64,000 nt of DNA from Candidatus Bathyarchaeota archaeon. GTDB lineage: Archaea > Thermoproteota > Bathyarchaeia > Bathyarchaeales > Bathycorpusculaceae. Positions within the stretch are counted from its first letter, which is position 1; the number at the start of each line of letters is the position of its first letter. Shown here piece by piece: positions 1 through 22,272 of the stretch. The notes below the pieces were generated by a model that was not told where the DNA came from, searched no databases, and saw only the letters and a program-made list of their open reading frames with translations. The stretch lies in the NCBI GenBank assembly GCA_003151735.1, contig PLYI01000036.1, forward strand, positions 1 through 64,000. The letters are read 5' to 3'. A program made the translations under genes and the position numbers.

Positions 1-104
1 CTATAGGCGGGCTACGGTTTCTCCACTGAAAATAAACAAGGGGGTTCAACGGTTATACCGTAAGATAGTAAAGGGTGTATTTGTTATTGAAGAGGTGACT
101 TTGC

Positions 105-2330: not shown

Positions 2331-2338
2331 TCTTTTTT

Positions 2339-2824: not shown

Positions 2825-3076
2825 TTTACTTTTTGCCAGTATGAGCAGGTGGATTTGAACCTACGCTAAAGTGGAGATATCACCCGAAGACTTTACTATT
2901 AATTTGATTTTTGATTAATTTGATATACCAAAATATAAAAGAGCTCTTTAATAATACATATCTTTTCCTTAACTCTCTATAAGGAAAAGTTGTTTTAAAC
3001 TAACATTACCTGAAGGGCTTTGAAGGGTTGCAATTTTAAACGAAGGTTATTAGGGATAAGTAAAAAAAACAATTCA

Positions 3077-5311: not shown

Positions 5312-5320
5312 TTCTTTTCC

Positions 5321-6409: not shown

Positions 6410-6534
6410 CAGGGCTTGGGTTTATGTCGGCGCATATCAACGGATTAACAAAAAAATTACATAGCGGTTCTTGACTGCGTTGCCCTCACCTTGAAGGGCA
6501 ACTCAACGAGAGGTCAGAGCGGACGAACGTCTAA

Positions 6535-6759
6535 AACTTTGACCGCTCTGAATCAAGAGGATTAGAAATTGCAAAAACAAAAGAAAACCAGATCAATCGA
6601 ATAAATAGTGTTACTTACAAAGTCCATTCCCAGAGTTGCGGTCGCGAGTACACTGTTTATCTTTCGAACGATCAGTGGAGATGCGAATGCCCATACTACG
6701 AAACCTATGGTATTAAGTGTAAACACATTTGGGCTGTGGAATTTAGTCTAGGCGGTTGA
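6535..6759 (+). pseudogene. SWIM zinc-finger remnant of an archaeal insertion-sequence transposase
   Basis: The open frame after the stop at 6532-6534 encodes RGLEIAKTKENQINRI and then WRCECPYYETYGIKCKHIW. The second segment is a perfect SWIM finger (CxC...CxH). This order is typical of the N-terminal part of a DDE transposase family common in archaea. There is no ATG, GTG or TTG start in frame and the coding stops soon after the finger, so the catalytic domain is gone. I read it as a 5' relic of an insertion sequence, oriented opposite to its neighbours. It could instead be a free SWIM protein started at a non-standard codon, but that seems less likely. Confidence 0.65.
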
Positions 6760-7661
6760 TATCGTGGATTCTCCGGCTTCTTTTGTTATTCGGTATATTT
6801 TGTCCACGAAACCTTCAAGTTCACTCTCATGTGAAACAAAGGTTACTTGCTCGCAATTCAGCTCTTTGAGAATATCCCTAAGTCTAAACAATTGTTCGCG
6901 GCTAAATCCGTCTGTAGGTTCAACTAGTTTGAAGTGCACTGGAATATTGTAAACGTTTGTAAACCCTGAAAACAATCGGTTTGCGGAGAAACCACAATCA
7001 TTTTTCGTATGTAGTGACGGCTCTTGTATAGAAAGCCATTGAACCAGCTTGACTTATAGCCTTGCGCTTCTTCCACGATTAGCACTAAGTTTTTCAAAGC
7101 ATCTTTGTTCATGTCTAAACTCATGTTTAGTTCTGTGAAAAGTTGTTTCACTTGCAAAGTACCCATTACACTGTGTTGGGCTGGGCAAAAGCGAACATGG
7201 TGGTTATTTGCAAGGTCAAGTTCTCTTATGCTCTTAATTTCTTTTAAACTTTCATATTCTCCGTTTGCGTCGATAACTAAAACTGGATTGTTTACAAGAG
7301 AAGGAATGAAAACGTTTTTTGTCCAGTAGGTTTTTCCGCTTAATGGTTTTCCACTTAACACCATCGGCGTGCAATCCTTCATTATTTTAGCAGAAGTAAC
7401 CATTTCAAGGGAAGCTTGCATCTCAATGACGTGGTGAATCACAGATCCTAAGTCTCGGAAACCGCATTCGTCTTGAATTTTCTTGAGCTTGTTGTAGTCA
7501 CTTTCTCGAAAGTTAACCAGCGTTAAAGCTTTCTTTTCTGGGCTAACTAAATTGTGGAATGTTTGAAGAAGCGTTTCTTCACCTGTAGAGTTTTGGATAT
7601 CTTTGAGTTTCTCAAAGTCTTCTTTCCAGACATAAACGTGCGTGTGTTTATCGTCAACCAT
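6748..7661 (-). pseudogene. RHH/HerA-FtsK-type ATPase gene with a single frameshift
   Basis: The first frame (7661 to about 6940) encodes two ribbon-helix-helix-like segments (about 7-40 and 46-80). A HerA/FtsK-type P-loop ATPase follows: Walker A SGKPLSGKT at 103-111, VIDANGEY at 129-136, Walker B LVLIVEEAQ at 192-200 and the sensor IVVSPQ at 222-227. After FQGLQTF the first frame ends quickly, while the -1 frame continues as a normal protein end (YNIPVHFKLVEPTDGF... to VTFVSHESELEGF) stopping at 6748. One base loss near 6945-6950 explains both halves. Such ATPases pump or move DNA in viruses and plasmids. No canonical slippery heptamer is present, so decay or a sequencing error is more likely than programmed shifting. 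Confidence 0.75.
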
Positions 7662-7669
7662 AGAATCGC

Positions 7670-8167
7670 CTAAATCACAGAATAACTGTCGAATCCCGAC
7701 GTTAGAGTCCTTGTTTTGCTTTTTGTCTTCGGCAAAGCCTCATCTTCCCGCTGTCTTCGGTCATAGGGCTTCGCTGTTTGCAATAGCCACAAAAAAGGCT
7801 TCACATTAGACTTGACCTCATCAATGACTATTCCGTCTACAATAGAAACGTGAAATTTGCATCCTGCCATGTACCTTACTTTTGATTTATCAAATTGCCC
7901 ATGTTCTTTTCCAAAAGCATGTAACGTACACACCCATGTTCCCAAGCTACTTCGGTCTACTCGTGGACCACAACGTGCAATCTGGAAAACTACTTCACGC
8001 CAGTGACGGGGAATTGAATTAAATTTGTGACAATGAACGAAAATATAGCCATAGCAATGTGGGTGGCGCTTCAAAGCCGAGGCAAGGTGCTCAGGTCTTT
8101 GTCTAACAACTTTGGCAAGTAAAAGTTCAAATTTTTGTCTTTCCAAATCATCCAAAAACTCTGACAA
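7670..8167 (-). CDS. Hypothetical element protein (165 aa)
   Basis: The TTG start at 8165-8167 follows a strong ribosome-binding site (GGAGGT), which supports a real gene. The 165-residue product is basic in its last 40 residues and rich in His, Trp and Arg in the centre (HPHCYGYIFVHCHKF). I do not recognise the family. It ends 8 bp before the ATPase gene and follows the Cys-rich gene, so it probably belongs to one operon with both. A role in DNA handling is possible but unsupported. Confidence 0.65.
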   Translation of the reverse strand: MSEFLDDLERQKFELLLAKVVRQRPEHLASALKRHPHCYGYIFVHCHKFNSIPRHWREVVFQIARCGPRVDRSSLGTWVCTLHAFGKEHGQFDKSKVRYMAGCKFHVSIVDGIVIDEVKSNVKPFLWLLQTAKPYDRRQREDEALPKTKSKTRTLTSGFDSYSVI

Positions 8168-8181
8168 ACCTTAACCTCCTA

Positions 8182-9297
8182 TTATAGAAAATTCTGAGCA
8201 TCTCTAATAATTCTTGTTCGAATTTCGTTCTTGATAATACACTTCTCCTTACAGTGCGCTTTGAAAGAGCATTTTGCGCATTGTTTAGCCATCAAAACTT
8301 TGTCGTTGCCGAAATAACGAAACTCAAAAAAGTATCTGCAATTGTCTGGGTTGCTTGGATGAACAAATTCGTTTCTGAAAGAATCTTCACAAAACTCAAC
8401 ACATGAACAACCCTCACAAGCCTCACCCTCATCGTCGTCCACAACAGGGTATTGCTCGCATTCCACAAATACTTCGGCAGGAGAAACAAGGTCTGCGCCA
8501 ACCGACTCCATGAATTTTTTGAGACATTCAAAAATTTTAGGGCACAAAAAACATGTTTTTGGTTCACCAAGTTCAGGGGTAAAAAACTTACCAAAATCTT
8601 TGTATTGCATGCATTCTGAAATTATGGGTGCTTCAACTGTTGCTTCTCGATGTTGAGATGTTAATTTTTTAGGCAATTCAATTGTTTGGTTTCTTCTGAA
8701 CTTAATAGAGCCTAAACACTTCATAACCTGTTTAGGTTTGCAGGTATTGGTGCATTCCCTCAAAATATAGAAGGCTTTTCCATGGGTTCCATCCGATTTG
8801 CAATTTGCCTTCCAAAGTTTATCATAAACGCTTGGATAATGTTTGCATTGTATTTCTAAAAAAAGGTCAATGTTATCTTGTTCTGTGCCATCAAAAGGAA
8901 TTTGTTCAGAACTGCACTCGCAATCTCGGCAGCATACCCTTGCTTCGAAACTATCAACAATGAATTTTACTTCAACGATAATTTGTGTGTTAACCAAACC
9001 ACAAAACGGACAATGATAAACTCCGTGATAGTGCAGCATTTCAGAGATTTGTACGCATCTTTCCCGCAAGCAACAAACTAAACACTCATCGCTGTAAATC
9101 GTTGATGCACCGCACAACTTGCCAAGGCACGGATGCTTTTCTATTAGCTCATAAGTCACTGAAAGCCCCATGCAGAGCTCTAAATCGTCACATTGTCCAC
9201 AATTACTTCTTGGTTTGACCCTCCCCCCTTCGCTTACTCTTATGTGATGCCCTGCTTCATCAAAAGTTTTAGGAAAACCAAAACATGATTCAAACAT
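8182..9297 (-). CDS. Large Cys-rich, multi-zinc-ribbon-like protein (371 aa)
   Basis: The frame is open further upstream, but the ATG at 9295-9297 has a clear AAAGGTGA ribosome-binding site and gives a start of MFESCFGF, so I use it. The product has many paired cysteines spread over its full length (CGQCDDLELC, CLVCCLRERC, CPFCG, CCRDCEC, CFLCPKIFEC, CEGCSC, CAKCSFKAHC). These suggest several zinc- or iron-sulfur-binding modules. There are no membrane segments. I know no named family. It sits in the minus-strand operon with the HerA-type ATPase. The cysteine spacing CxxCxxxxxC recurs, which hints at internal repetition of one module. Confidence 0.75.
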   Translation of the reverse strand: MFESCFGFPKTFDEAGHHIRVSEGGRVKPRSNCGQCDDLELCMGLSVTYELIEKHPCLGKLCGASTIYSDECLVCCLRERCVQISEMLHYHGVYHCPFCGLVNTQIIVEVKFIVDSFEARVCCRDCECSSEQIPFDGTEQDNIDLFLEIQCKHYPSVYDKLWKANCKSDGTHGKAFYILRECTNTCKPKQVMKCLGSIKFRRNQTIELPKKLTSQHREATVEAPIISECMQYKDFGKFFTPELGEPKTCFLCPKIFECLKKFMESVGADLVSPAEVFVECEQYPVVDDDEGEACEGCSCVEFCEDSFRNEFVHPSNPDNCRYFFEFRYFGNDKVLMAKQCAKCSFKAHCKEKCIIKNEIRTRIIRDAQNFL

Positions 9298-9379
9298 TAC
9301 TTTCACCTTTAAGAAACAAGTTATCTGACATTTTCGTTCATCCTGTTTTTGTTTTTCAAAAAAGAAAAAAAGAGATTGT

Positions 9380-9709
9380 TTACTCGCTATCTTCTTCCTC
9401 AATGTGTTCTTCGAGCTTTGCTTCTGTGTCTTCGACTTCTTCCTTGACTTGCTCTAGCTGCTCTTGTGCTTTCTGTGCTTGCTTTTGTGCCTTTACGTCT
9501 GCCGTCGGATTTGTATTTATCATGATATTAGTGACCTTCAGCATTTTCGGGTCTTTTCCCTCATTAATCCACGATTTCTCAAGACAATAGCTTTGCTGAG
9601 GTTCTTCACAGTCCTTACATCTTGTCGGCATTGTCAGTTCGCTTTTACGTTTTTCAAGATGAGACCACAAAAATTTGCGCCTAGTGCCACAATCAACTAT
9701 TTCTTCCAT
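9380..9709 (-). CDS. Small protein with zinc-binding CxxC and acidic coiled-coil tail (109 aa)
   Basis: A strong GGAGGTGA ribosome-binding site precedes the ATG at 9709. Residues 1-45 are basic and contain CKDCEEPQQSYC, a likely metal knuckle. Residues 70-109 are an acidic, Gln/Glu-rich helix that probably forms a coiled coil (QAQKAQEQLEQVKEEVED). The opposite charges of the two ends suggest a DNA- or RNA-binding adaptor, but this is inference. It lies about 80 bp upstream of the Cys-rich gene on the same strand. Confidence 0.65.
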   Translation of the reverse strand: MEEIVDCGTRRKFLWSHLEKRKSELTMPTRCKDCEEPQQSYCLEKSWINEGKDPKMLKVTNIMINTNPTADVKAQKQAQKAQEQLEQVKEEVEDTEAKLEEHIEEEDSE

Positions 9710-9766
9710 TTCGATTCACCTCCATGTTTCGTGACTTAATTTTTTCAACCTTATCTTCAGTGATTT

Positions 9767-10063
9767 TCAATCTTTCAAAACACATTTTCTCTCAGCCTCT
9801 TCCTCAAGTTTCTTCAAGTAATTGGCAAACCATCTTTCTAGATGCAGATGCTTCTTGTGCCACACCTTACGAGACCCCAAAAAAATCATGCCTAAATCAC
9901 GAAGATGGTAAATTTGTTTTTGCAGTGAAAATCTGGAGCGGTTTTGAAGGTTGCAGACTTCCGCTAAGTCATTTAAAGTAAAGTTGTCGGATAAGCGTTC
10001 CCAATTCAAAAGAATGGAGTCGTAGATATGCAGCTTTAACGTGATTTTATCTTCATTTTTCAA
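9767..10063 (-). CDS. Winged-helix DNA-binding protein (98 aa)
   Basis: The TTG start at 10061-10063 is preceded by AAAGGTGA. The protein is mostly helical, with LNDLAEVCNLQNRSRFSL and then QIYHLRDLGMIFLGS, which fit the recognition helix and wing of a small wHTH domain (about 25-65). The C-terminal 30 residues are a charged helix. It is the first gene of the minus-strand cluster running down to 6748 and so may be its regulator. The family is not known to me. Confidence 0.6.
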   Translation of the reverse strand: MKNEDKITLKLHIYDSILLNWERLSDNFTLNDLAEVCNLQNRSRFSLQKQIYHLRDLGMIFLGSRKVWHKKHLHLERWFANYLKKLEEEAERKCVLKD

Positions 10064-10558
10064 CCTATTTCACCTTTAAACCTCAAATTAGACTTATTTA
10101 GTTAAGCAAGTAAGAACTCGACTCTTAGCCCATATAATCGTTTAGCCTAACTTTCAAAAACGCTGAAAAAAATTACGTTCGGTATCTCGGCAAGTAATAA
10201 AACAGCCATAATTTAGCCATTTCACGTTCTTACAAAAACGAAAAATGTTTGCTGAAGTAAAGAATCCGCTTAAAGTCCATGCCTTTCTATTATCACAACT
10301 TGCTTACCTATAATGTACTTTATAGATTTGCGCACGCTTGTTTCTTACGTTAGCCAAATTTTAGCAAACCCTTTCAAAAGTCACTGACTTGAAAAGATTA
10401 ACAGACATTATTTTCAATCCAACTACTATGCATGTTTCTACATGCTGATAACCCGTGTTAGCTCGCCCGAAGTCTATGCTTCATAGCGGAATGCTGTGAC
10501 TTGAAACCAAGAATCTCTTCAATCTTTTTCGTAAGGCAAGAATGAGCACCTTCTTTTT
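10064..10558. other. Intergenic region, one hairpin seen
   Basis: No gene can be supported. GCATGT-TTCT-ACATGC at 10430-10445 is a perfect 6-bp stem with a 4-base loop. It could be a terminator-like or operator hairpin between the two minus-strand blocks. The promoter of the 98-aa gene should lie at the left end (AT-rich stretch around 10085-10140). Confidence 0.35.
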
Positions 10559-11524
10559 TTAAAGCTCTGGTGGATAATAATTATTCCCCAAAAAACGCAT
10601 AGGTATTTTGTTTATCATTTGTAACTCTTTGGTAAGAGTTTGGTCATCTAAGATATTCCATAAGATAAGGCAAATTAAGTTAGTTAAAAGCCCAGACCGA
10701 AGTTGAAAACCTTTGACTCCATGAAGCGAAGCATTTCTTAAATCATAAATTGAATCCCATCCATCATCGGTTGGCGAGCTTGCCGAAATAATTTTGTCAA
10801 TTTCTAACCTGAAATCTCGTAGATTATTTGAAATATCAGGTTTTGATAGAACAGCGCTACCGTTCTCTTCAAGGGCACGTAAAATTTTAGCTAAACTGTT
10901 AATCTTCCGACTACCTTTATGAAATATATCGTGACCAGCTCTAAATGTTGCAAGGGGATTACCATCACAATCAATAAGCGGAGATAGTGCAAACTTAGCC
11001 AAGCCTTCCAAAACGGGATAACATATGTACATTAAAAAAACGTCCCTGCTATCTACTAAGTCCTTGACAGGTTGCGAAACTATTTCACTAGTTGCTCTGT
11101 TAAGTCTTTCAAGTGATGGAACACCCTGTTGATGAACATTCAATTTAGCAAAGTTAGCTGCCATAAGAGCCTTGAAACCATCCTGTAATTCCCAATCTCT
11201 AAGTTGGGGTGTTATTAATGAACGGTTTACTATGTCGTTCGTAAGCGCCCAAAACCAAAAACTGTCATATTCAACTTGAATAGCAAACTCTCTAACTAAG
11301 TATATTGGCAATCTTCTTAGGATATTTATTGACAATTCGTGAAGCTTGCAGTGGGAGACTATCAATAAATCACTTTGACCAAAAAAGTTGCAGCTCATAT
11401 TCTCTTCTTGAAATTGCGATACTCCGATGAACTTTTGCTTCAGTGGTAATGATTTTATCAAATAATCTTGAACAAGCCGTTTGATATCTTGCTCAGTTAT
11501 CGCCTGATGAGGTAAATTTGCCAA
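10559..11524 (-). CDS. HEPN-motif protein (321 aa), possible RNase effector
   Basis: The C-terminal part holds YDLRNASLHG, in which Arg263, Asn264 and His268 form the RxxxxH signature (RNxxxH) of HEPN-type nucleases. Helices flank it on both sides (about 205-245 and 275-300). The N-terminal 180 residues are helical and unknown to me. HEPN proteins often act as toxins or abortive-infection RNases that cut cellular RNA. The gene stands alone within the mobile element, without an obvious antitoxin next to it. The start is TTG at 11522-11524, and its ribosome-binding site is poor. The HEPN call rests on one motif and the helical context. Confidence 0.55.
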   Translation of the reverse strand: MANLPHQAITEQDIKRLVQDYLIKSLPLKQKFIGVSQFQEENMSCNFFGQSDLLIVSHCKLHELSINILRRLPIYLVREFAIQVEYDSFWFWALTNDIVNRSLITPQLRDWELQDGFKALMAANFAKLNVHQQGVPSLERLNRATSEIVSQPVKDLVDSRDVFLMYICYPVLEGLAKFALSPLIDCDGNPLATFRAGHDIFHKGSRKINSLAKILRALEENGSAVLSKPDISNNLRDFRLEIDKIISASSPTDDGWDSIYDLRNASLHGVKGFQLRSGLLTNLICLILWNILDDQTLTKELQMINKIPMRFLGNNYYPPEL

Positions 11525-11639
11525 TGGAAAGCCTCAACACGTTATCTTTGACTTAGCCTTTTATGTTTTTGTAGACAAATGATGATTTTAATTCTCTATT
11601 GATAATAAAATGGACTTTCAGACTTTTCAAAATCGCTAA

Positions 11640-11834
11640 TTATGAATCTATCAGTCGCTGTATTTGTTGGAGTTCCATGGCAACCTTGGTTCCTTTGTCT
11701 GTTAAGCTGTAAAAGCTTTGAATAGGTTTCGTGTCCACAACTTTTCTTTTTATGAGCCCTTCTTCTTCAAGGTCTTTAAGGCTCAAACTCAAAGTCCCTC
11801 GACTAGTCATCAATGCGGACACTTCTGAATGCAC
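11640..11834 (-). pseudogene. 5'-truncated winged-helix regulator
   Basis: The GTG-started frame gives a 64-residue protein that begins in the middle of a helix-turn-helix: SALMTSRGTLSLSLKDLEEE is the recognition part, and GLIKRKVVD plus FYSLTDKGTKV form the wing. The same frame is open upstream to about 11897 and encodes a plausible first helix (PLLLHFLPQPSLKPF) but offers no start codon. I therefore read it as a decayed MarR/PadR-like repressor gene. A short functional version from the GTG cannot be excluded. Confidence 0.5.
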
Positions 11835-12060
11835 AAAAGGCTTGAGAGAAGGTTGAGGAAGGAAATGCAGTAAAAGTGGAAAAAAAGAAACTTATTGCGG
11901 TTCTTAAAGGAGAAACAAAGAAGAATTTTGTTCTTCAAGACGTGACGGAATGGTACGATGTTTCTTCGTTCTATCTAAAAAATCTTTAAAGCCTAATGCC
12001 ATAGAAATCGTCCTCCAGCTAACTTAAGCATTAGAGGCACATACAGTTTATGGGCGCATT

Positions 12061-12183
12061 CTATGCTTTTTTCGCATTCACCACAATCTTGTGGTGATAC
12101 AAAGTTAGGTGCTGAGACAGGTAACTTTTGTCGTTGGGGGCTTCGATGATTTCTACAGTCCAGTTTTGTTCATGTTCACACAT
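12061..12183 (-). CDS. Small protein (40 aa) directly abutting the 617-aa gene
   Basis: The ATG at 12181-12183 follows the TAG of the 617-aa gene without a gap. A perfect GGAGGTGA ribosome-binding site lies inside the end of that gene, which strongly suggests translation. The 40 residues begin MCEHEQNWTVEIIEA and end with KKA; I see Cys2, His4 and a His pair but no known domain. Translational coupling implies a role tied to the large P-loop protein. Confidence 0.6.
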   Translation of the reverse strand: MCEHEQNWTVEIIEAPNDKSYLSQHLTLYHHKIVVNAKKA

Positions 12184-14037
12184 CTATTGTGTCACCTCCA
12201 TGTCATTGAGAAGTTGCTGAGCTTTGGCTTTCTCTTCATCCGAAACTTGTCTGATTGGTTGTTGCGATGTAGGGGAGAAGTTCTTAATTGAGTATATCAT
12301 CGGTTTAGTTCCAGCCTTCTTCCAATCTCTGTCGGGGTCTTCTGAAATCATGTCTTGCTCTTTCAGTGTCTCAATTAATCTGTAGAATTTGTCTGCAACC
12401 AATTTTGAAGCCCGAAGCAACTCGGTTTTATGCATTCTCCCATTGTTAGCTCTCAGTAGGCTAAGTATTCTGTTAATCTCGGCTTCGTCGGTTTTAACTA
12501 TGTTTGACATAACGTTTGTTGACCATTCGGTAATAATTTGTTCAAAGTCTTCCATGTTTAGTTTAACGTGATTAATTGTCCACTCTATTTCGGTTTGAGA
12601 AGCAAGCAGTCCAATAGTTTTAACGTCGGGAAGTATTCCGCTGTGTATTATCCGATTAGTCTCAGCATCGCTCTCGTCTGGATTCCCATCTTGTGTAACC
12701 TTAATCTTTAACAGTCTTTGCTCGTTGACAGCTAAGCATATGACCATGAGATATTTGTAGCATAATTCAGCCCACATGCTCCAAACAGCGGCTCGGATAT
12801 AGTCCTTGTTTTTTACAAAGAGGTCTCTTTCGTGAGACATTGTGTTAGCAAAATCTACTAGCATATGTTGCGCTTGTTTACCGAACACCCTTACAGCGAT
12901 TGGGATTTCTTGTGTTACTTCCTTTAACTTTAACAATCTTTCAGCATAACTGTGAATCTCTTTTTCTCTTAATGACTTTGGTAAGAAGAAGCCAGAGTCA
13001 ATGTCTTTGTTCTTTCCAGAAGGAATTCTAATCCACAGAACTCGTCTTCCATGACCGCTTAAAAACCATGATTCTTTATCTAAACATTTGTAAACATATT
13101 CGGTGGTACTGCTCAGAAAGCTAACGTCAACATCTTTTCCATCAGTTTCTTCGAACGGTATTGTTTTGCCTTTGTCGTCTTTGTCTTTGCTTCCAATAAT
13201 TAGGCGCGATTGCACTCTTCCTTCAAATAACGTCAGTAGAAATTCAAGAAGCGCTCTGTTGTATCCGTTTCCTGTGCTGTCTTTGGCTACCGTGGTGAAT
13301 TCTTGAAGGTAAATTAATCCATAGGCTTTCTTTGTCGTTAAGTATTTTCCCATTGCCTCTTTAGTGAAATGCGAAGGGAGAAAGAAATTGTATCCTCTCT
13401 CTGCAAGAGTCTGCCTTAAAGGTCGATAGTATTCCTTTTCTGGTTGGTCTTTTACCGTACCGCTTGAACCTTCACCTATGAATACGAAGATTGGTCTTAA
13501 TTTTCCAATCTGGTCCTCAAAACGAAGGGTATCGTGAAACATCATCCCAAAATGAGTTATTGCTTGCGCTTCAACCCAGTGGTAGTCTGAGTTTGGCAAT
13601 TCTTTGGTAATTTCGTTTGTTATGTCGCTTATCCAATTGTGTCTTAAAGCGTATTCTCGTTTCATTTTTTCAATTTCAGATAGCATTTCTTGCTTTGTCA
13701 TGACAGGTTCTGGTGGCTTGATTGTCTCTTTATCGGATTCTTGTTCTTGTGGGAATATTTCGTTCTCATAGACTTCGTTGTCTTCGTTGTTTTGCTCTTC
13801 GCCTATTCCCAAGTTTTCTTCGAAGAATTGTTCCTCTTCAGCATCGAGTGGGTTAAAACGAGATTCAACTTCGGCTTCTTCCAGTGTTAGTGGCTGTTCT
13901 GGTTCAGGATGCAGATGTAGCTGATAGTTTGATTCGTTTAAAGTCTCTTGGTCATCATGGCTTTTGAGTTCTTCGAAGTCTTTGCTGGTTAAAGGCTTGT
14001 CATCAACAAGAATTTTTTTGTCAGGTTGCTCTTTCAT
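12184..14037 (-). CDS. Large P-loop protein with C-terminal winged helix, candidate element replication ATPase
   Basis: The 617-residue product has an acidic, low-complexity N-terminus (1-112). An ATPase-like core follows, with a divergent P-loop IGEGSSGTVKD at about 187-197 and a Walker B-like GLIYLQEF at about 240-247. A C-terminal wHTH (RILSLLRANNGRMHKTELLR, about 524-543) completes it. The layout resembles DUF3987-type or primase-linked helicases found in plasmids and proviruses. The P-loop lacks the usual GK[ST] (it has GT), so ATP binding is uncertain. The neighbouring inverted repeat and small DNA-binding genes support a replication role. I cannot exclude a terminase-like or partition role. 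Confidence 0.6.
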   Translation of the reverse strand: MKEQPDKKILVDDKPLTSKDFEELKSHDDQETLNESNYQLHLHPEPEQPLTLEEAEVESRFNPLDAEEEQFFEENLGIGEEQNNEDNEVYENEIFPQEQESDKETIKPPEPVMTKQEMLSEIEKMKREYALRHNWISDITNEITKELPNSDYHWVEAQAITHFGMMFHDTLRFEDQIGKLRPIFVFIGEGSSGTVKDQPEKEYYRPLRQTLAERGYNFFLPSHFTKEAMGKYLTTKKAYGLIYLQEFTTVAKDSTGNGYNRALLEFLLTLFEGRVQSRLIIGSKDKDDKGKTIPFEETDGKDVDVSFLSSTTEYVYKCLDKESWFLSGHGRRVLWIRIPSGKNKDIDSGFFLPKSLREKEIHSYAERLLKLKEVTQEIPIAVRVFGKQAQHMLVDFANTMSHERDLFVKNKDYIRAAVWSMWAELCYKYLMVICLAVNEQRLLKIKVTQDGNPDESDAETNRIIHSGILPDVKTIGLLASQTEIEWTINHVKLNMEDFEQIITEWSTNVMSNIVKTDEAEINRILSLLRANNGRMHKTELLRASKLVADKFYRLIETLKEQDMISEDPDRDWKKAGTKPMIYSIKNFSPTSQQPIRQVSDEEKAKAQQLLNDMEVTQ

Positions 14038-14064
14038 ACTGAAACCATCTTTTTAGGTTTAGTT

Positions 14065-14196
14065 TTATGGTGTAGAATGCTTGTTTAAGTCGTGGATAAC
14101 TAATTGGTTGTGAGTGTGCTTCTCAGTATAGCCGTAGAAGACTTTACCGCACTTAGGGCATTTTTCAGTGAACATTTCGGTTTGTTTTTTCTCCAT
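14065..14196 (-). CDS. C2H2 zinc-finger protein (43 aa)
   Basis: This short gene has AAGGTGA 6 bases before its ATG. It encodes a single C2H2-like finger, CPKCGKVFYGYT followed by His27, His29, His35 and His40, so the ligands are Cys13, Cys16 and two of the histidines. Single-finger proteins of this kind are common in archaeal viruses and plasmids, where they bind DNA. It ends 27 bp before the start of the 617-aa gene and is probably co-transcribed with it. A dyad overlaps its likely promoter. Confidence 0.7.
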   Translation of the reverse strand: MEKKQTEMFTEKCPKCGKVFYGYTEKHTHNQLVIHDLNKHSTP

Positions 14197-14213
14197 ATTT
14201 TTCACCTTATATA

Positions 14214-14226
14214 GGGTAATATACCC
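14214..14226. promoter_or_regulatory. Dyad operator GGGTA-N3-TACCC upstream of the zinc-finger gene
   Basis: A perfect 5-bp inverted repeat with a 3-bp spacer lies 17 bp upstream of the zinc-finger start, next to TATATAAGG. The position suits a repressor site acting on the zinc-finger/617-aa operon; the zinc-finger protein itself is a natural candidate for autoregulation. Confidence 0.45.
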
Positions 14227-14714
14227 CTTTAGCTTCCGAGAAAAGGCTTCTTACATATAAATCTAACCTCGAACTTTCTAGCACTCACTCGATAAATTAA
14301 GCTCCATTTAATAAAAGGGGGATGAAATGAGCTTATTAAGGTTCGAACTTTTTGAAACTATATAGTTTTTATAGTTTATTATATATTGGCTCTGGGTCGA
14401 TAGCAAAACCAATCGTAAATAATGGTATAAACCATCGTTCGGCTTGTTATGGGGCTTATTTGTGAAAATAGTTGTTTTTATGGGTTATTAAATGATAGTA
14501 GTATTTTGGATATAGTAACCTCTTAGCAGATTAAGACTCGGTAATAGCCAATATTAAATTTCAATACCCCCTTACTGCATAAGTATATACTACTATCATT
14601 AAATAACCACAAATTAAAGTCCTTTTAGTGAATAAGCTGAATAAAAAGGCGATTAATGGTTTTTATGTTTATCTACGATTATCTATTATTAAATTTCAAA
14701 ACCGCGAATTCGGC
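14227..14714. repeat. AT-rich intergenic region with a 22-bp inverted repeat (candidate origin)
   Basis: The two arms lie at 14483-14504 and 14587-14608. Each contains ATGATAGTAGTAT (or its complement), and they differ at one position of 22. The 82-bp spacer is AT-rich. ATTAAATTTCAA recurs as a direct repeat near 14553 and 14687. No gene can be supported between 14227 and 14714. Such a structure between a candidate replication gene and a regulatory operon is typical of plasmid origins or of a strong operator pair, but neither is proven. Confidence 0.55.
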
Positions 14715-14888
14715 TCATTTCAATGGTGTTTTCTGCCCTTTTTCACAAGCAACTTTAACCAAGCTAAAAGTGGTTCCAGCAACCGACGCTTTTCGGACAG
14801 CAACCAATTTACCCCTGTTATTATCGAGAAGTTTGGTTGCTAGATCAATGCATGGCTGATATGGGTCTGAAACGGCAACAGAGGACAT
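14715..14888 (-). CDS. Small protein (57 aa) coupled to the ribbon-helix-helix gene
   Basis: The ATG overlaps the stop of the upstream gene by one base (TAATG), a classic sign of translational coupling. The 57 residues start MSSVAVSDPYQPCIDLATKL and end in a Lys-rich tail. I do not recognise a domain. It is the last gene of the operon that carries the half-TBP. Confidence 0.5.
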   Translation of the reverse strand: MSSVAVSDPYQPCIDLATKLLDNNRGKLVAVRKASVAGTTFSLVKVACEKGQKTPLK

Positions 14889-15091
14889 TATTTTTCCTCC
14901 ACGTTTAGAGTTTTCATCAAATTATTGAATTCTTCTTCATTTACGAAACTGTACGTCCACTTGTCATTTGGAGTTGAATTGTATTTGAGCAAAAGAAGGT
15001 TGGTTACTTGATTCAATGAACCAGCTTTCGACTCTGCTCTTAGGTTTTCCAGTTCTTTCCAGACTTCCCTTGTAACTTCAACAGTTTTCAT
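14888..15091 (-). CDS. Ribbon-helix-helix-like small protein (67 aa)
   Basis: The N-terminus MKTVEVTREVWKELENL followed by a helix and SLNQVTNLLLLKY fits the beta-strand/helix/helix plan of RHH DNA-binding proteins. The last 25 residues are acidic. It starts 3 bp after the stop of the half-TBP gene and overlaps the following 57-aa gene, so the three are translated as a unit. RHH proteins usually dimerise and repress their own operon. Confidence 0.6.
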   Translation of the reverse strand: MKTVEVTREVWKELENLRAESKAGSLNQVTNLLLLKYNSTPNDKWTYSFVNEEEFNNLMKTLNVEEK

Positions 15092-15094
15092 TGT

Positions 15095-15397
15095 TTAACC
15101 TCTAACCCTGTTTAGCTGCGATTTTAGCTTCTGTATTGCTTCGTAGATTTCTTGCTCTTTGGCGGCTGTGCAAACCAGCTTTCCGCTTGCAAACAAAAGA
15201 ATTACGCCTTTAGTTTTCTCTACTCGAATAACTAAGCCTGGAAAATGTTCTGGTTCGTAGGTCGAGTTTTTCAAAATAGCAGATGTTTTTTCAAGGTCAA
15301 TTGTAGCGCTTAAGCTTGTGGAGGCAACAAAGGTTTGGGTTTTTAATTTGGGTTTGCTGATTACTATTTTGTTCCCTTCAAATTCTTTGACTTTCAT
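15095..15397 (-). CDS. Single-repeat ('half') TATA-binding protein
   Basis: Residues 22-92 match one TBP repeat in order: FVASTSLSATIDLEKTSAIL, then YEPEHFPGLVIRV, then GVILLFASGKLVCTAAK and a final helix AIQKLKSQL. Normal archaeal TBP has two such repeats in about 180-190 residues; this protein is only 100 residues and has one. The EPEHFPG loop and FASGKLVCTAAK strand are well kept, so it is not simply decayed. It could dimerise on a TATA box, pair with the host TBP, or act as a competitor that redirects transcription. It overlaps a small upstream frame by ATGA and is followed 3 bp later by the RHH gene. Confidence 0.85.
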   Translation of the reverse strand: MKVKEFEGNKIVISKPKLKTQTFVASTSLSATIDLEKTSAILKNSTYEPEHFPGLVIRVEKTKGVILLFASGKLVCTAAKEQEIYEAIQKLKSQLNRVRG

Positions 15398-15492
15398 AAA
15401 AATTTCCCAGCTAAGTCTTTCAATCTGAAACGTCCATCGAGATTACTCCAATTCACCATCAAACAATACGAATTGTAGCTTTTCATAGGCAT
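15394..15492 (-). CDS. Possible leader ORF overlapping the half-TBP start
   Basis: A 32-codon frame beginning MPMKSYNSYCLMV ends in a TGA that overlaps the half-TBP ATG (ATGA). The frame is open further upstream, but an archaeal TATA-like stretch (ATATTTAAAAAT on the minus strand, near 15549-15560) lies about 60 bp before this start, so the longer version is unlikely. It may couple translation to the TBP gene. Coding is not certain. Confidence 0.3.
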   Translation of the reverse strand: MPMKSYNSYCLMVNWSNLDGRFRLKDLAGKFL

Positions 15493-15697
15493 CGATTTCG
15501 AGATAGTTAAAATTCCCAAATAAACGTTATTATGGACTTGCAAAAATAGAATTTTTAAATATCTACGGAAGGCAATTTTGGCTTTTGAATTTATCTTGAA
15601 ATTTTTAACTAATTTACTTACAGACAGAAAAAACACCTATAAATGCTCTAATAATGCAAAAGAAAAGTGGTGAGTCAAAATTTTTAACTCTGTGTTT

Positions 15698-16069
15698 TCA
15701 AACGGTCTCCGCTTTTCGTTTTAGGATATCGTTGACTGTGTCTTCGCAAATTTTTTTGGATACCTCCTTGTCTAAATCGTTAATATTGACAATTATTTCA
15801 AACGATGATTTAGGTCTGCCTTTGTTATCGACGGTATCTATTGTCCACGTAATTTTGTTGTTACATAAGATTTTACTTGTTTTCTTTTGGTCTTTGAGGG
15901 ATTTTTTCTTTTGAAATGAACTTTGGTCGAATATTATCTGGCGGTCGCCATTTTTTTCTGGAGGACCAAGCGTTGCGCTAGTTCTAACATTTAGGTTTTT
16001 AAGTGCTTCCCATTGTTTGTTTTCTGTCGGAAGCTTGACAGTTTTTGATTTAGGTTTCATTTTATTCAT
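15698..16069 (-). CDS. Hypothetical basic protein (123 aa)
   Basis: The ATG-started 123-residue product is Lys-rich in its first 65 residues. Its C-terminal half is more structured (KITWTIDTVDNKGRP followed by FEIIVNINDLDKEVSKKI). No family is known to me. It is divergent from the 163-aa winged-helix gene across a 74-bp gap containing TATATATAG, so that regulator may control it. Confidence 0.55.
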   Translation of the reverse strand: MNKMKPKSKTVKLPTENKQWEALKNLNVRTSATLGPPEKNGDRQIIFDQSSFQKKKSLKDQKKTSKILCNNKITWTIDTVDNKGRPKSSFEIIVNINDLDKEVSKKICEDTVNDILKRKAETV

Positions 16070-16143
16070 TTTTTAACTTCTCCGTCATTTTGTATTTCTA
16101 TATATAGTCGCAAGTGGTTTTTATTGGGCATTGATGTTACTGG

Positions 16144-16635
16144 ATGATACCAGAATCGGATATCATGATAGATGGAAAGATTAAGAAAAACATAATACGA
16201 AGTGATGTAAAAATTAGATTATGTTTCAAGTACTCAAAAGATGCTTACAAAGTGCTCGGTTTTCTTTTCCGCAAGAAAGAAGCAAGATTCACAGAGATTA
16301 TTGATGAATTCAGTTTGAACAAAAGAACTTTGACAAGGTGCCTACACGGATTGGAGGAAGATGACTTGGTGTCCGAGAGAGAAAATGTTGGTCACATAAA
16401 ATTCTACTTTAATACTCCTAAAGGCAATGAAGCTTTTGTGAAAGAAGCAATTATTCTTGCAAAAGCCTCTAAGGTTCAAAAAGATCAAATAAAGAAACTC
16501 AAAGAGGGTCTTGAACAAATTCAAAACATAGAAGATGAGAAAGAACGCTTCAAGAACTGGAAAACAGTGTATGAAGTACTCGGAATTGAGGAAGATGGGC
16601 CTTCAACGAGCGAGAAAAGAGTTCAGAAAAAATAA
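16144..16635 (+). CDS. Winged-helix transcriptional regulator (163 aa)
   Basis: Residues 30-95 form a wHTH: a first helix AYKVLGFLFRKK, then FTEIIDEFSLNKRTLTRCL as the helix-turn-helix and HIKFYFNTPKG as the wing. A charged helical tail (about 100-150) likely dimerises. TATATATAG about 40 bp upstream of the ATG suggests a short-leader transcript. The divergent 123-aa gene is the obvious target. No effector-binding domain is seen. Confidence 0.7.
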   Translation: MIPESDIMIDGKIKKNIIRSDVKIRLCFKYSKDAYKVLGFLFRKKEARFTEIIDEFSLNKRTLTRCLHGLEEDDLVSERENVGHIKFYFNTPKGNEAFVKEAIILAKASKVQKDQIKKLKEGLEQIQNIEDEKERFKNWKTVYEVLGIEEDGPSTSEKRVQKK

Positions 16636-16696
16636 GGAATAATGTTTAGTTATTACTTCTCGAGCTCCGTTAGGATCTCTTTAAGGTCAATGCCCT

Positions 16697-17293
16697 TTAA
16701 GAAAAGATGTCAGCGCTAATAGAAAACTTAACTGATTGAAATGCTCTCGTCACAATCTCCGAATCTAAACTCTTGTTATCAGTGAAAATCCGTATGCATT
16801 TTTCTCTTTCTACAACATGTAGGAATTCATGTGTCAGTATTCTATAAAAGATCATTAGCTTTCGAGTGTTACCTGTCGCTTGTAGACTATTGACCTGAAT
16901 ATCCATTTGTCTACCCCATTCAAGCAGCTGTTCTTCTCTGATCATGATAGTGTACTTGTATTTTCCGAAATGTGGAATATCAAAGGCTTCTCTCAATGTT
17001 GTTGTGATTATAGGAAACGCTTCGGGTGATGATGTATGAATCAATCGAGTAGTACATGCTACAACAGGAAAGAATTCTTCTGAATAATGAGTCGCTTGTG
17101 ATTCTTTTGATATGTCTCTTATTCTACTGCCTTGCTCATTGATTTCTTTAGTTGTTTCTAAATAACAACTTTGTAGTAACCTGTGTTCTTCTTCAGTTAT
17201 TAGCATTACGAGAACTGGAACGTTTTGGGTAACATAGTATTCTTTTCTTGCGTAGGCTTTGAGGTTTGATAGAGTTTCGTTGACGAGTCTCAT
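16697..17293 (-). CDS. HEXXH putative metalloprotease-like protein (198 aa)
   Basis: The helix ILTHEFLHVVE carries HEXXH at 155-159, the zinc-binding and catalytic signature of zincin proteases. A downstream glutamate (Glu162 or a later one) may be the third ligand. The N-terminal 100 residues contain beta strands and have no signal peptide, so it acts in the cytoplasm if active. It resembles in plan the small ImmA/IrrE-type proteases that cut repressors in mobile elements, but the sequence alone does not prove that. It is the last gene I assign to the element. Confidence 0.55.
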   Translation of the reverse strand: MRLVNETLSNLKAYARKEYYVTQNVPVLVMLITEEEHRLLQSCYLETTKEINEQGSRIRDISKESQATHYSEEFFPVVACTTRLIHTSSPEAFPIITTTLREAFDIPHFGKYKYTIMIREEQLLEWGRQMDIQVNSLQATGNTRKLMIFYRILTHEFLHVVEREKCIRIFTDNKSLDSEIVTRAFQSVKFSISADIFS

Positions 17294-17810
17294 TTTTGCA
17301 CTTCACTTGAATTAGATTGGTAAACAAAGTCCTAGTGCATACTTCTTTTCGACCATAAAAGACATATCGATAGTTATGGCTGCCCGTTATAGTAAATTAT
17401 GGAGGCATAACGCATTTTAAGGATAATTATAACGAGAGCTTCCCACCATTGCTGCGGTCTATCCAAGTAAAAGCACGTATTTTGCGTTATCCAAATTGAT
17501 TCCTGCAACTTTGATTTTTTATTTATTGTTTTAACTGTTTTTTATGTGATTTTGGTTACTTAACAGGTGATAGCTAAGGGTGGGTTACTTATCAGAATCT
17601 TGCAAAGTAATACACATAAATTGAAAAAATTGTAGAACTGACTGTTGGGGATACGAACTTCATCTGTTTCTCTAAGTGTAAAGGCGTCTAAGCGAGAAAT
17701 TTCTAATTATTTATAAGCTTGAAGGCTGCCAAAAAGCCTTTAACGTTTTCAAGAATACAACCTATTACTTTATGGCTTTTACTGCTATAGCAAAAACTCA
17801 ACTATCAAGC
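17294..17810. other. Intergenic region, no gene seen
   Basis: I find no supported gene. AAGGCT...AGCCTT around 17724-17742 forms a 6-bp stem with a 7-base loop. The right border of the mobile element may lie here, but I found no repeat matching the left end. Confidence 0.35.
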
Positions 17811-18140
17811 TTAAATTATTTTACGAAACCTTAGGAACCTTGCCAAGTTAACTGAGTCCATTATAATTACTAAATTTCTGTTACCGCAATCTTTACCATA
17901 CTCAACAATTTTACTTACCACCCCATCGACAAGAGGTTTAGCTACAACAAGCAAAATGTGGTCAGGATGAGTTTCATTAGCTTTTAGAATCTGATGAGCA
18001 ATGTCCTGAAATATTATGTTTGTTTTAGAAATAGCACGCCAGACAGCCGAGCAATTAGATAGGAAACAAGTTACATGGAGAGAGGTTTCTTTAAATTTTT
18101 GTAAGATTTGCTCAAATATGTTTGATGATGAAGGCACCAA
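17811..18140 (-). CDS. Hypothetical protein (109 aa)
   Basis: A TATA-like TTTTTAAAT lies about 27 bp before the TTG at 18138-18140, which suits leaderless transcription. The product has an alternating helix/strand pattern; two hydrophobic strands (HILLVVAKP and LVIIMDSV) recall a small Rossmann-like fold. No motif is recognised. Confidence 0.45.
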   Translation of the reverse strand: MVPSSSNIFEQILQKFKETSLHVTCFLSNCSAVWRAISKTNIIFQDIAHQILKANETHPDHILLVVAKPLVDGVVSKIVEYGKDCGNRNLVIIMDSVNLARFLRFRKII

Positions 18141-18271
18141 TAAAACAGGTGATAACTATAACATTTAAAAATAATTTTTTTAGCAAATTTATGAAATAAT
18201 AGGGACACTTTGCTGTTAAGTGTGCAACCCAGTCGCTCTGGATAGTTTATAGCAGGCGGTAATGGCTATTC

Positions 18272-18511
18272 CTAATGGCAGCTTTCTTTTGACTTCTTTT
18301 TCTTTGACAGCAGATTGGGAAGCATCATAAGTGCCATACCTAACGGACATATTAGAATGAAGAGATAATTCAAATATGAAGCTCCTGGAAAGAGAGCAGC
18401 TACTGCTACTATAGCAACTATCGGTAAAATGCAGCACACCATCATTAATATCATATGTTTTGCGCTATGTGACTCGTGGCTTGTTTCCTGATCAACGTGA
18501 TTATCAGACAT
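18272..18511 (-). CDS. Small DUF2933-like membrane protein (79 aa)
   Basis: The His/Glu-rich N-terminus MSDNHVDQETSHESHSAKH is followed by two membrane segments (about 21-41 and 45-66) with the paired Cys of MMVCCILP and a short Lys-rich tail. The plan matches DUF2933 proteins, which in other organisms lie in copper and heavy-metal resistance loci. A close paralogue is at 22581-22832. Both are preceded by the same 43-bp promoter element (here 18546-18588), which implies joint regulation. The His-rich end may bind metal. Confidence 0.7.
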   Translation of the reverse strand: MSDNHVDQETSHESHSAKHMILMMVCCILPIVAIVAVAALFPGASYLNYLFILICPLGMALMMLPNLLSKKKKSKESCH

Positions 18512-18545
18512 AGTTCTCGCTATCCACTGAATTGACTTTTAGTTC

Positions 18546-18588
18546 TTGTAAGATTCAACGGACAATTTATGACTTAAAATAGAACAAA
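18546..18588 (-). promoter_or_regulatory. Bipartite 43-bp promoter element, copy 1
   Basis: On the minus strand TTTGTTCTATT, an 11-bp spacer, ATTGTCCGTTG and a TATA-like TTACAA follow with fixed spacing. The TATA position predicts transcription starting about 12 bp before the DUF2933-like gene at 18511. See the finding on the seven copies. Confidence 0.7.
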
Positions 18589-18700
18589 ACTTGAACAAGT
18601 ATCTCAAAAGTCAACCACTCAATCTCTTAATCCAAGCTTTGTATTATTGAGTTATGACATAATGCACTTAGCAGGCGTGGAATGACATTTTATTGTGGAC

Positions 18701-19870
18701 TCAACATGTTATCAACTTAGATTTTTGAAAGGCCTGCTCCAAGTCTTCTTTCAGGTCTTCGACGTCTTCTATGCCTACTGATAATCGGAGGAGATTGTTT
18801 GTAATTCCTATGCGATCTCTTTCCTCTTTGGTTATGCTGGCATGTGTCATGGATGCAGGTTGATTGATGAGTGATTCAACGCCGCCTAGGCTTTCTGCCA
18901 AAGCAATGATTTTTAGCTTTCCAAGGAAGTTCTTTGGATTAACTTTTTTGTTAACGTAGAATGATAGCATTCCGCCGAATCCAGTCATTTGCTTCTTTGC
19001 CAATGTATGTTGGGAATGGGTTTTTAGTCCAGGATAATTGACTTTTTCAACTAATGGGTGAGTACTTAGGTATTCTGCAAGTTTGAGGGCATTGTAATTG
19101 TGTCTGTCCATTCGTAATGCGAGGGTTTTGGTTCCCCGTAGCACTAAGAAGCAGTCGAAAGGTGAAGGAACAGCGCCTATAGCATTTTGGTTGAACTTAA
19201 GCTTAGCATAAAGCTCATCGTTTGAAACCAAAATCGCTCCTCCAACGACGTCACTGTGTCCGCCTAGATACTTTGTTGTGCTGTGGACAACTATGTCGGC
19301 ACCTAAATTCAGTGGATTCTGGAGATAAGGGCTAGCAAATGTATTATCGACAACTGTGATTAGGTTGTGTGCTTTAGCGATTTTTGAGATGGCTTTTATG
19401 TTGCAGAGTTTTAGGAGCGGGTTTGTTGGTGTTTCTAGCCAGATGAGTTTAGTATTGTTTTTGATGGCTGATTCAACGTTTTCTGTTTTAGTAGCGTCTA
19501 CGTAAGAGAATTCTAAGCCAAAATTGGCTAAAGTGCGGTCGAATAACCTGCGGGTTCCCCCATAGAGGTCTTCAAAGACAATAACGTGATCCCCATTTTT
19601 GAGCAATGCCAAAGCTAAGGTAGTCTCTGCAGCTAAACCAGAAGCGAAAGCTAAACCATATTTGGCGTTTTCAAGCTCTGCTAGCCTTCGTTCCAATGCT
19701 TTTCTTGTAGGGTTTCCTGTGCGTGCGTATTCGTATCCGCCTGTGGGCTTATCGATTTCTGTTCTTGCAAATGTGGTTGCTAAGTGGATGGGAGTTACGA
19801 TGTCGCCGTATCCGCCTTCTTTGAGGTTAGGTTCTTCTCCGCAGTGGATAGCTTTGGTTGAGAATTTCAT
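18701..19870 (-). CDS. Cystathionine gamma-lyase/synthase family PLP enzyme
   Basis: This 389-residue enzyme belongs to the Cys/Met-metabolism PLP family: the cofactor lysine lies in HSTTKYLGGHSDVVGG, and YARTGNPTR, GLAFASGLAA and LRLSVGIEDVEDL are family signatures. Its gene follows the cystathionine beta-synthase gene by 4 bp, so the likely role is the second step of reverse transsulfuration, splitting cystathionine to cysteine, 2-oxobutyrate and ammonia. A GGGGTGAT ribosome-binding site supports the ATG. The family also includes cystathionine gamma-synthase and methionine gamma-lyase, which sequence reading alone does not separate. Confidence 0.9.
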   Translation of the reverse strand: MKFSTKAIHCGEEPNLKEGGYGDIVTPIHLATTFARTEIDKPTGGYEYARTGNPTRKALERRLAELENAKYGLAFASGLAAETTLALALLKNGDHVIVFEDLYGGTRRLFDRTLANFGLEFSYVDATKTENVESAIKNNTKLIWLETPTNPLLKLCNIKAISKIAKAHNLITVVDNTFASPYLQNPLNLGADIVVHSTTKYLGGHSDVVGGAILVSNDELYAKLKFNQNAIGAVPSPFDCFLVLRGTKTLALRMDRHNYNALKLAEYLSTHPLVEKVNYPGLKTHSQHTLAKKQMTGFGGMLSFYVNKKVNPKNFLGKLKIIALAESLGGVESLINQPASMTHASITKEERDRIGITNNLLRLSVGIEDVEDLKEDLEQAFQKSKLITC

Positions 19871-21504: not shown

Positions 21505-22272
21505 CTAGGAAATTTTAGCCTTTAGAAGGATGCTATGTGCAAGCCGCAGCAGTTCTTCTTTGGTCTCGAAAGACACTTGCTCAAGCTTTCCAACATCTAA
21601 AATCTCATTTCCCAAATTAACCGCTATATTTCTCCCCATACTCCGATGTCTAAAATAAACAAACGTTTTATTGGCTTGTTTTCTTGCCATGCTTATTTCT
21701 TTAATCACTTCAGGCGACAAGTTAAAGCCGGGAGTCATGATAAGGACAAAATACTTGCTTTCCACCAACGCTTTATCACGAACCTTAGCCCAACCTTCTT
21801 CAGTGTCAACAGTCTGAGGAATGTCTTTACAGTCCTCGAATGTGTGCAACCCAAGCTCTTCTAAACCTGCTTTTAAATGGTCAGCGTAATCTTTTCCTGA
21901 ACTTTTTTTGTAACATAGAAAAACATCAAAAGGTTTCGAGCCATCATCTCTGATAACCACTTTTTCTGACCCAGCCGACAAGCTCCCTTCAACTGCTGGA
22001 TTAATATTGCTCAGCGTATCTTTTTTTGTTCTTTCATTCTTTTCTTTTTTTGAATAGACAAAATAATACAAAACTGAAGCTATTGAAATGATGATTGCTA
22101 TCGAAACTAAAACAAGAGAAATTACCCCGTTATTTGTCGTCGTTGGAACACTACCCATCATACCGTTAATTCCACTTGCATCGGAATTAATTAAGAAATA
22201 TATTCCAACTACAAGTAACAAAAGAGCAGAGGTCACTGATACAATTAGAATAAGAAGCTGTTTTTCTCGCAC
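21505..22272 (-). CDS. Membrane-anchored TIR-domain protein (255 aa)
   Basis: Two membrane segments (about 7-27 and 49-71) flank a short outside loop containing NGMMGS. After a charged linker comes a TIR fold (about 113-250) starting FDVFLCYKKSSGKDYADHL, with GLEELGLHTFED and KYFVLIMTPGFNLSPEVIKE. In many TIR domains a glutamate near the last segment is the NAD-cleaving residue; Glu in SPEVIKE is the candidate here. The TIR domain would face the cytoplasm. Such proteins can act in anti-phage defence or as adaptors. It lies next to transsulfuration genes without a clear operon, so its role is open. Confidence 0.8.
   Translation of the reverse strand: MREKQLLILIVSVTSALLLLVVGIYFLINSDASGINGMMGSVPTTTNNGVISLVLVSIAIIISIASVLYYFVYSKKEKNERTKKDTLSNINPAVEGSLSAGSEKVVIRDDGSKPFDVFLCYKKSSGKDYADHLKAGLEELGLHTFEDCKDIPQTVDTEEGWAKVRDKALVESKYFVLIMTPGFNLSPEVIKEISMARKQANKTFVYFRHRSMGRNIAVNLGNEILDVGKLEQVSFETKEELLRLAHSILLKAKIS

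Follow-up and report, generated by a model that had tools for sequence, protein, structure and literature searches.

The half-TBP gene and its apparently foreign surroundings

The window, by which we mean the whole stretch of 64,000 nucleotides analysed, codes at positions 15095-15397 of the minus strand for one C-terminal TBP lobe with its linker (half-TBP). The reading frame runs for 100 aa from an ATG that lies inside a 115-aa stop-to-stop frame. The original prediction had read one complete TBP repeat in these 100 residues and had proposed a profile search against TBP families; PF00352 confirmed one complete repeat (E 8.1e-21, residues 19-97) at 74.1 bits against a cut-off of 22.9, and the motifs quoted at the time were found. 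The best PDB TBP match had an E value of 1.4e-35, and the best NCBIfam TBP model gave 94 bits, below the cut-offs of the full-length models (181 bits or more). An AF2 model made with a 38-row alignment of lobes (pLDDT 86.7, pTM 0.71) superseded a poor single-sequence model (pLDDT 49.9). When the PDB was searched by Foldseek with the structure model, all 42 of the 42 matches with E up to 0.001 were TBP chains or fusions that hold a TBP. The features of the region are the following.

105-1421, plus strand: tyrosine recombinase (phage integrase family), near the contig start (PF00589, 1.5e-8)
3077-5311, minus strand: HamB helicase of a Hachiman defence system (PADLOC HamB, 2.6e-227)
5321-6409, minus strand: HamA of the same Hachiman system (PF08878, 6.3e-46; PADLOC HamA, 1.3e-114)
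12184-14037, minus strand: 617-aa orphan with a weak C-terminal winged-helix signal (DUF7343, 0.0062, below cut-off), possibly a replication protein
14411-14680, no strand: imperfect inverted repeat whose 94-nt arms are 70% complementary and separated by 82 nt; it divides the half-TBP operon from the 617-aa gene
14715-14888, minus strand: 57-aa ORF with GGAGG before its ATG, probable third member of the operon, no Pfam or PHROGs match
14888-15091, minus strand: 67-aa ORF, second in the operon, ribbon-helix-helix (RHH)-like pattern by eye only
15095-15397, minus strand: half-TBP, stand-alone C-terminal TBP lobe with linker, 100 aa (PF00352, alignment, AF2, Foldseek)
15698-16069, minus strand: 123-aa orphan ORF, upstream of the half-TBP operon
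16144-16635, plus strand: 163-aa probable winged-helix regulator, divergent from the 123-aa gene (Lrs14 family 9.8e-5 and MarR 0.0033, both below cut-off)
16697-17293, minus strand: 198-aa orphan protein with HEFLH, which by eye we take to be a possible metallopeptidase motif; no family match in Pfam, PHROGs or NCBIfam
18031-18165, plus strand: 3' end of an HTH-like host gene that is truncated or decayed at the junction; of its 122-aa frame, residues 80-122 were found (47% identical)

The operon is as tightly coupled as had been claimed: half-TBP is followed after 3 nt by the 67-aa ORF, which in turn overlaps the 57-aa ORF by 1 nt. No match in Pfam, PHROGs, NCBIfam or the PDB confirmed the RHH label given earlier to the 67-aa neighbour. 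Folded as single-stranded DNA, the inverted repeat at 14411-14680 reached -38.1 kcal/mol (z -4.72), and 0 of 200 shuffles were as good; a replication origin of the element is one possible identity for it.

Half-TBP apparently lies within about 18 kb of foreign DNA, and the mobile-element setting proposed in the original prediction is supported by the integrase, the orphan genes and the broken synteny. Window segments 18.3-21.3 and 29.8-35.8 kb match the related genome G013 in the same order, which identifies the contig as host. Left of 18.2 kb, no window ORF of at least 60 aa had a match in the compared stretches of G013, G018 and G029. The HTH-like gene is whole in all three of these genomes, and the window holds only its last 43 codons; because this host gene is reduced at the junction, the right edge of the foreign DNA is probably near 18.0 kb. 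The left end of the element is beyond the contig start, and no convincing att repeat was found in positions 1-19000. Relatives of the 617-aa protein were found in none of the 60 related genomes, IMG/VR or the PDB, and six joined neighbours gave no relatives in the 60 genomes except one weak match inside the host genome itself. The integrase had none in plasmids or IMG/VR, and a 406-aa protein none in IMG/VR, where the scans used short peptide patterns that reach close relatives only. On the host side of the junction, window positions 21505-22272 code for a 255-aa protein with a TIR domain (TIR_2, 3.3e-8) and, by eye, N-terminal membrane-like segments.

A C-lobe without its N-lobe

Half-TBP is a single lobe rather than two tandem lobes in one chain, and no second lobe was found in the contig or the flanks. 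A whole-genome search with PF00352 at E up to 10 gave no other match in the contig. In addition, three N-lobes were aligned to the flanking DNA and the scores were compared with those of shuffled sequence. The 1 kb upstream and the 1 kb downstream scored 37 and 35 (shuffle means 35 and 34), values reached by 59 and 84 of 200 shuffles, respectively. For window positions 1-18500 minus half-TBP the score was 52; the shuffles averaged 44 and peaked at 53, and 2 of 50 reached 52. Because the N-lobe alignment scores are near shuffle levels, we conclude that there is no second repeat and no convincing remnant of one; the earlier statement that none lies nearby thus held against both the profile search and the N-lobe alignments.

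Half-TBP aligns end to end, its first 15 residues included, with the linker and C-lobe of canonical TBPs. Over the whole protein, identity is at best 56% to canonical TBPs of the host's archaeal order and 36% to an accessory TBP of the host (C115). In most of the canonical TBPs aligned, its start Met corresponds to an internal Met of the AVMKVVKELKK stretch, close to where the first lobe ends. Among the matches listed, the C-lobes of the order's canonical TBPs are 57-60% identical to half-TBP and their N-lobes 38-45%. Eight of the 10 NCBIfam TBP models that match half-TBP place it in their second half, the best of them (NF001592) at positions 84-180 of 194, and the other two place it in the first half. 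The two lobes of Pyrococcus TBP match half-TBP equally (61.7 and 60.8 bits). Because of this tie and the two dissenting models, it is not the distant TBPs but a tree of both lobes that settles the lobe identity.

When 15 N-lobes and 15 C-lobes were put into one tree, in which the bootstrap is rough and long branches meet, half-TBP fell in a 13-row fork with 12 C-lobes (support 91/85), and 14 N-lobes stood apart from it (100/100). Its sister was the C115 accessory C-lobe (95/82), a placement that the program flags as a possible long-branch artefact; the branch of C115 is even longer than that of half-TBP. When C-lobes alone were used, half-TBP formed a long branch (1.88) inside a 36-row group of TBPs from related genomes (97/87). 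On the evidence of these alignments and trees, half-TBP is a derived truncation of a full-length TBP of the host's own order that has lost its N-lobe. An ancestral single-repeat TBP would branch outside both N- and C-lobes; half-TBP is among the C-lobes. The likeness to such an ancestor seen in the original prediction is contradicted by the end-to-end alignment with linker and C-lobe, the shared Met, and the two-lobe tree.

Single lobes and accessory TBPs in related genomes

We took a census of PF00352 matches in 61 genomes, the host's own and 60 relatives, at E up to 0.01 in one pass and 1e-4 in others. Three stop-free frames shorter than 150 aa contained one complete lobe by itself: half-TBP, G049:C4, and G045:C133. 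The 117-aa frame of G049:C4 is an N-lobe that ends in strand S1 of the second lobe and is therefore a truncation of the other half. G045:C133 was set aside, together with G117:C64 and G106:C5, as a short frame beside a contig end. Half-TBP is thus the only free-standing complete C-lobe of the census. At G017:C91 the N-lobe is intact and the C-lobe is lost after its first strand and helix. Everything else that matched was a two-lobe TBP, a partial or broken remnant, a partial match within a longer frame, or a weak match below the cut-off, and two genomes had no PF00352 match at all.

The original prediction had looked for support in conserved homologues of 90-110 aa, and no such homologue appeared in the census or in any of the wider sets that we examined. 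Among the roughly 150 best matches listed from 256 genomes of the class, where divergent halves could be missed, the short frames were half-TBP and two beside contig starts. Eleven TBP loci of IMG/VR comprised 10 frames of 186-244 aa and an eleventh that was two-lobed with one in-frame stop. The 82-aa C-lobe frame of a viral contig (L068) was rejected as a half-TBP, since the gene there has both lobes and a single in-frame stop. TBP matches came from three phage and 78 plasmid records; the two phage records examined have TBP genes of 179 and 204 aa, and the seven plasmid records examined have eight genes of 177-183 aa. A match from Nanoarchaeia (L009, 47% over 34 residues) lies antisense to a longer open frame, shares mainly EPEHFPGLVI, and was taken as chance. 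None of the papers listed from the open-licence PMC literature deals with a half-TBP in an archaeal element.

Accessory TBPs of these genomes were tallied by hand where both lobes were scored and neither exceeded 90 bits; those that were at contig edges, partial, broken or insert-bearing were excluded, as was G017:C91, whose C-lobe was unmatched. In 5 of the resulting 22 two-lobe proteins the N-lobe scored at least 20 bits below the C-lobe, and the reverse was seen in 0 of 22. Lobe losses nevertheless go both ways in related genomes, since it is the C-lobe that is missing from G049:C4 and G017:C91, both of which retain the N-lobe, and the census also found TBP remnants in several of these genomes. 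The host genome has five two-lobe TBPs. C115 (2693-3229 of locus L046) is divergent, with a weak N-lobe of 40.5 bits and a good C-lobe of 73.4 bits, and lies by eye near a type I restriction methylase-like gene. An otherwise canonical TBP in G010:C148 (L059, 2055-2819) has an insertion of a few dozen residues inside its N-lobe, and late-starting N-lobe matches also occur in G020:C9 and G008:C151.

A weak PF00352 match in the host genome (G000:C81; L047, 1612-1881) led to a conserved protein of about 89 aa with relatives at L086-L107. It lies directly downstream of a SufS-like cysteine desulfurase, assigned by NCBIfam with one locus checked, in 12 of the 12 best-scoring loci, all of them from the host's genus. 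At E up to 1e-6, the family is present in 98 of the 256 genomes of the class. The best PDB matches of a 12-member profile were TBPs (M. jannaschii TBP at 7.5e-6, the next at 9.5e-4). At E up to 1, 8 of the 12 members matched PF00352 and 6 matched DUF3378, which we take to be the RNase H3 N-domain; the two members scored against cut-offs were both below them. In profile-profile comparison with TBP C-lobes the probabilities were 85 and 71%, and the alignments covered no more than the last 41-42 residues. The SufS-linked protein may be a conserved, chromosomal single-lobe TBP-like protein, and it may prove a better lead on single-lobe biology than half-TBP.

Constraint, possible function, and comparison with known systems

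Half-TBP and the host TBP C89 differ at 105 of 300 nucleotides (35%), with 34, 21, and 50 differences at the first, second, and third codon positions. By NG86, pN is 0.275 and pS is 0.613, giving a dN/dS of ~0.27, and the value between the host TBPs C89 and C38 is also ~0.27; between half-TBP and some other TBPs, the synonymous distance is saturated. In neutral simulations with the same number of differences, 267 of 5,000 copies were stop-free. Amino-acid identity between half-TBP and C89 is 0.54, compared with a mean of 0.385 and a maximum of 0.50 for the neutral copies, none of which reached 0.54. These results indicate purifying selection on the lineage of half-TBP, some of which may have acted before the N-lobe was lost.

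PMC7221094 describes two acidic C-lobe positions that contact TFB/TFIIB, with E284R and E286R lowering transcription, ties a phenylalanine to DNA binding, and assigns the signature TFB contact of normal TBP to the C-lobe only. Across our 44 aligned C-lobes, half-TBP included, E48, E50, F52, and F69 are invariant; V24, R58, K73, V75, and T77 are also kept in half-TBP. By the EPExFPG motif, we take E48 and E50 to be the TFB-contacting acidic positions and F69 to be the DNA-binding phenylalanine of that study. F52 and F69 are presumably the intercalating phenylalanine pair of the C-lobe, and we regard both, with V24, R58, K73, V75, and T77, as DNA-facing. Half-TBP thus has both the acidic residues with which a C-lobe is expected to contact TFB and the expected phenylalanine pair.

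Other positions have changed. Of 42 C-lobe columns that are identical in 34 canonical sequences, half-TBP keeps 28 and changes 14; four canonical-type C-lobes given the same test had 5, 0, 1, and 1 changes, and accessory C115 had 22. The changes in half-TBP are N22T, its neighbour I23F, Q51H, P62T, V64G, G78A, and eight others. The Asn of strand S1, which is Thr in half-TBP (N22T), is kept in at least 90% of the 44 aligned C-lobes and in all 34 canonical ones. We assume that N22T and I23F, both in strand S1, lie at the centre between the two lobes.

A lobe that keeps the residues expected to contact TFB without the other half of the clamp would most simply be a TFB-binding competitor. Our tentative reading, to which we give a little less than an even chance, is accordingly that half-TBP may be a kept, functional, TFB-directed factor of this kind. 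With no partner lobe to clamp DNA and with its stirrup glutamates retained, it would bind host TFB weakly or non-productively and compete with the full-length host TBPs, which would lower initiation at promoters of the host or of the element itself. The two small ORFs that follow would share its regulation, perhaps as an autoregulatory unit. The host, an archaeon by its TBPs and TFBs and perhaps one of the Bathyarchaeia, has several TFB genes (PF00382, E up to 0.01), all on contigs other than that of half-TBP. The C-lobe identity, the four invariant residues, the purifying selection, the precedent of haloarchaeal TbpC, and the weaker N-lobes of accessory TBPs all speak for a competitor. Against it are the singleton status of half-TBP, with no orthologue found, its long branch, and the 14 changed columns that include the S1 Asn. 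The equal match to both Pyrococcus lobes, the two NCBIfam models that align to the first half, the frequent decay of accessory TBPs in related genomes, and a constraint that may partly predate the N-lobe loss also weigh against it. More broadly, half-TBP may interfere with or redirect the host transcription machinery.

The same singleton status, long branch, and changed columns would fit a full-length element or host TBP that shed its N-lobe and left a functionless remainder. The frequent erosion of accessory TBPs in related genomes, where truncations and remnants are common, supports such decay, and the host gene at the junction is reduced too. However, the frame has stayed open over 100 codons at 35% divergence from C89, a state in which few neutral copies were stop-free and none kept the observed identity. 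Half-TBP also has its own start, sits in a tight operon, and has no detected N-lobe debris upstream. We consider decay unlikely, though by no means negligible.

It is less likely still that two half-TBPs pair through their S1 edges into a symmetric saddle that would bind TATA DNA, recruit host TFB without fixed orientation, and serve promoters of the element. This is the boldest of the alternatives. The residues regarded as DNA-facing are kept, N22T and I23F presumably fall at the centre between the lobes, and palindromic TATA-like decamers occur at 14357, 14582, and 16098, between genes of the element. Such decamers are, however, not enriched (4 in positions 1-18000 versus 3.8 expected), and the S1 Asn is lost. 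A further point against the homodimer is that, according to PMC7221094, the TFB contact signature of normal TBP is on the C-lobe only. Whether as a symmetric homodimer or as a TFB trap, a working one-lobe factor to which the element has reduced TBP for meeting host TFB is less likely than not. If true, it would be a general transcription factor that the element carries and that consists of half a TBP, and it would test in nature if a single lobe suffices for the work of TBP.

An improbable alternative is a single DNA-binding complex of half-TBP and its 67-aa neighbour that would repress or autoregulate the element. The 3-nt spacing, the 1-nt overlap, and the RHH-like pattern seen by eye would suit it, but no RHH family supports that pattern. 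The 67-aa protein had no match in any of the 60 related genomes, so that conserved pairing cannot be seen. Mixed TBPs, in which half-TBP would exchange with or dock onto a host TBP lobe, are very improbable: half-TBP is at most 56% identical to canonical C-lobes of the order and the host has five two-lobe TBPs, but the host lobes are fused, so the contact would presumably be pre-occupied.

Archaeal TBP is treated as a two-lobe saddle. A natural one-lobe TBP, if indeed maintained, would reveal which tasks are within the reach of a single lobe and could serve as a small tool for telling TFB binding apart from DNA bending. It would also give archaeal mobile elements a further, direct way to act on basal transcription. 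With archaeal TBP (PF00352; PRK00394 models), half-TBP shares a complete C-lobe and linker, the expected TFB glutamates, the Phe pair, and the predicted fold; it differs in having no N-lobe, in scoring below the full-length NCBIfam cut-offs, and in the change of the S1 Asn to Thr.

Among haloarchaeal accessory TBPs, PMC4230888 describes TbpC as having lost the phenylalanine pair of its N-lobe and kept that of its C-lobe, and it also reports losses on the C-lobe side. TbpC resembles half-TBP as an accessory TBP with intercalating phenylalanines in the C-lobe only. TbpC is a two-lobe chain, and half-TBP, which keeps the C-lobe pair, is not. The plasmid genes annotated TbpC that we examined code for 177-183 aa, and one of them has a degenerate N-lobe, whereas half-TBP has none.

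TBPs of mobile elements and viruses (haloarchaea, IMG/VR) are likewise carried by a plasmid or virus, and those examined are of two-lobe length. In three of the seven plasmid records examined (L040, L042, and L110, all haloarchaeal), the accessory TBP gene adjoins a BREX-5 gene (pglZ or pglX); two of these TBPs are annotated TbpC, and a defence-linked TBP is possible. Another haloarchaeal plasmid, pJCM16430-01 (L041), has a tandem pair of divergent TBP-like genes close to a type I restriction gene; in one of the pair, Thr occupies the same S1 position as in half-TBP.

Single TBP-lobe domains are described in bacteria by PMC7221094 for the RNase H3 N-domain and RnlA. These lobes are single like that of half-TBP, but in that account they are parts of larger enzymes or toxins; half-TBP stands alone and, by its alignment and position in the tree, derives from a two-lobe archaeal TBP.
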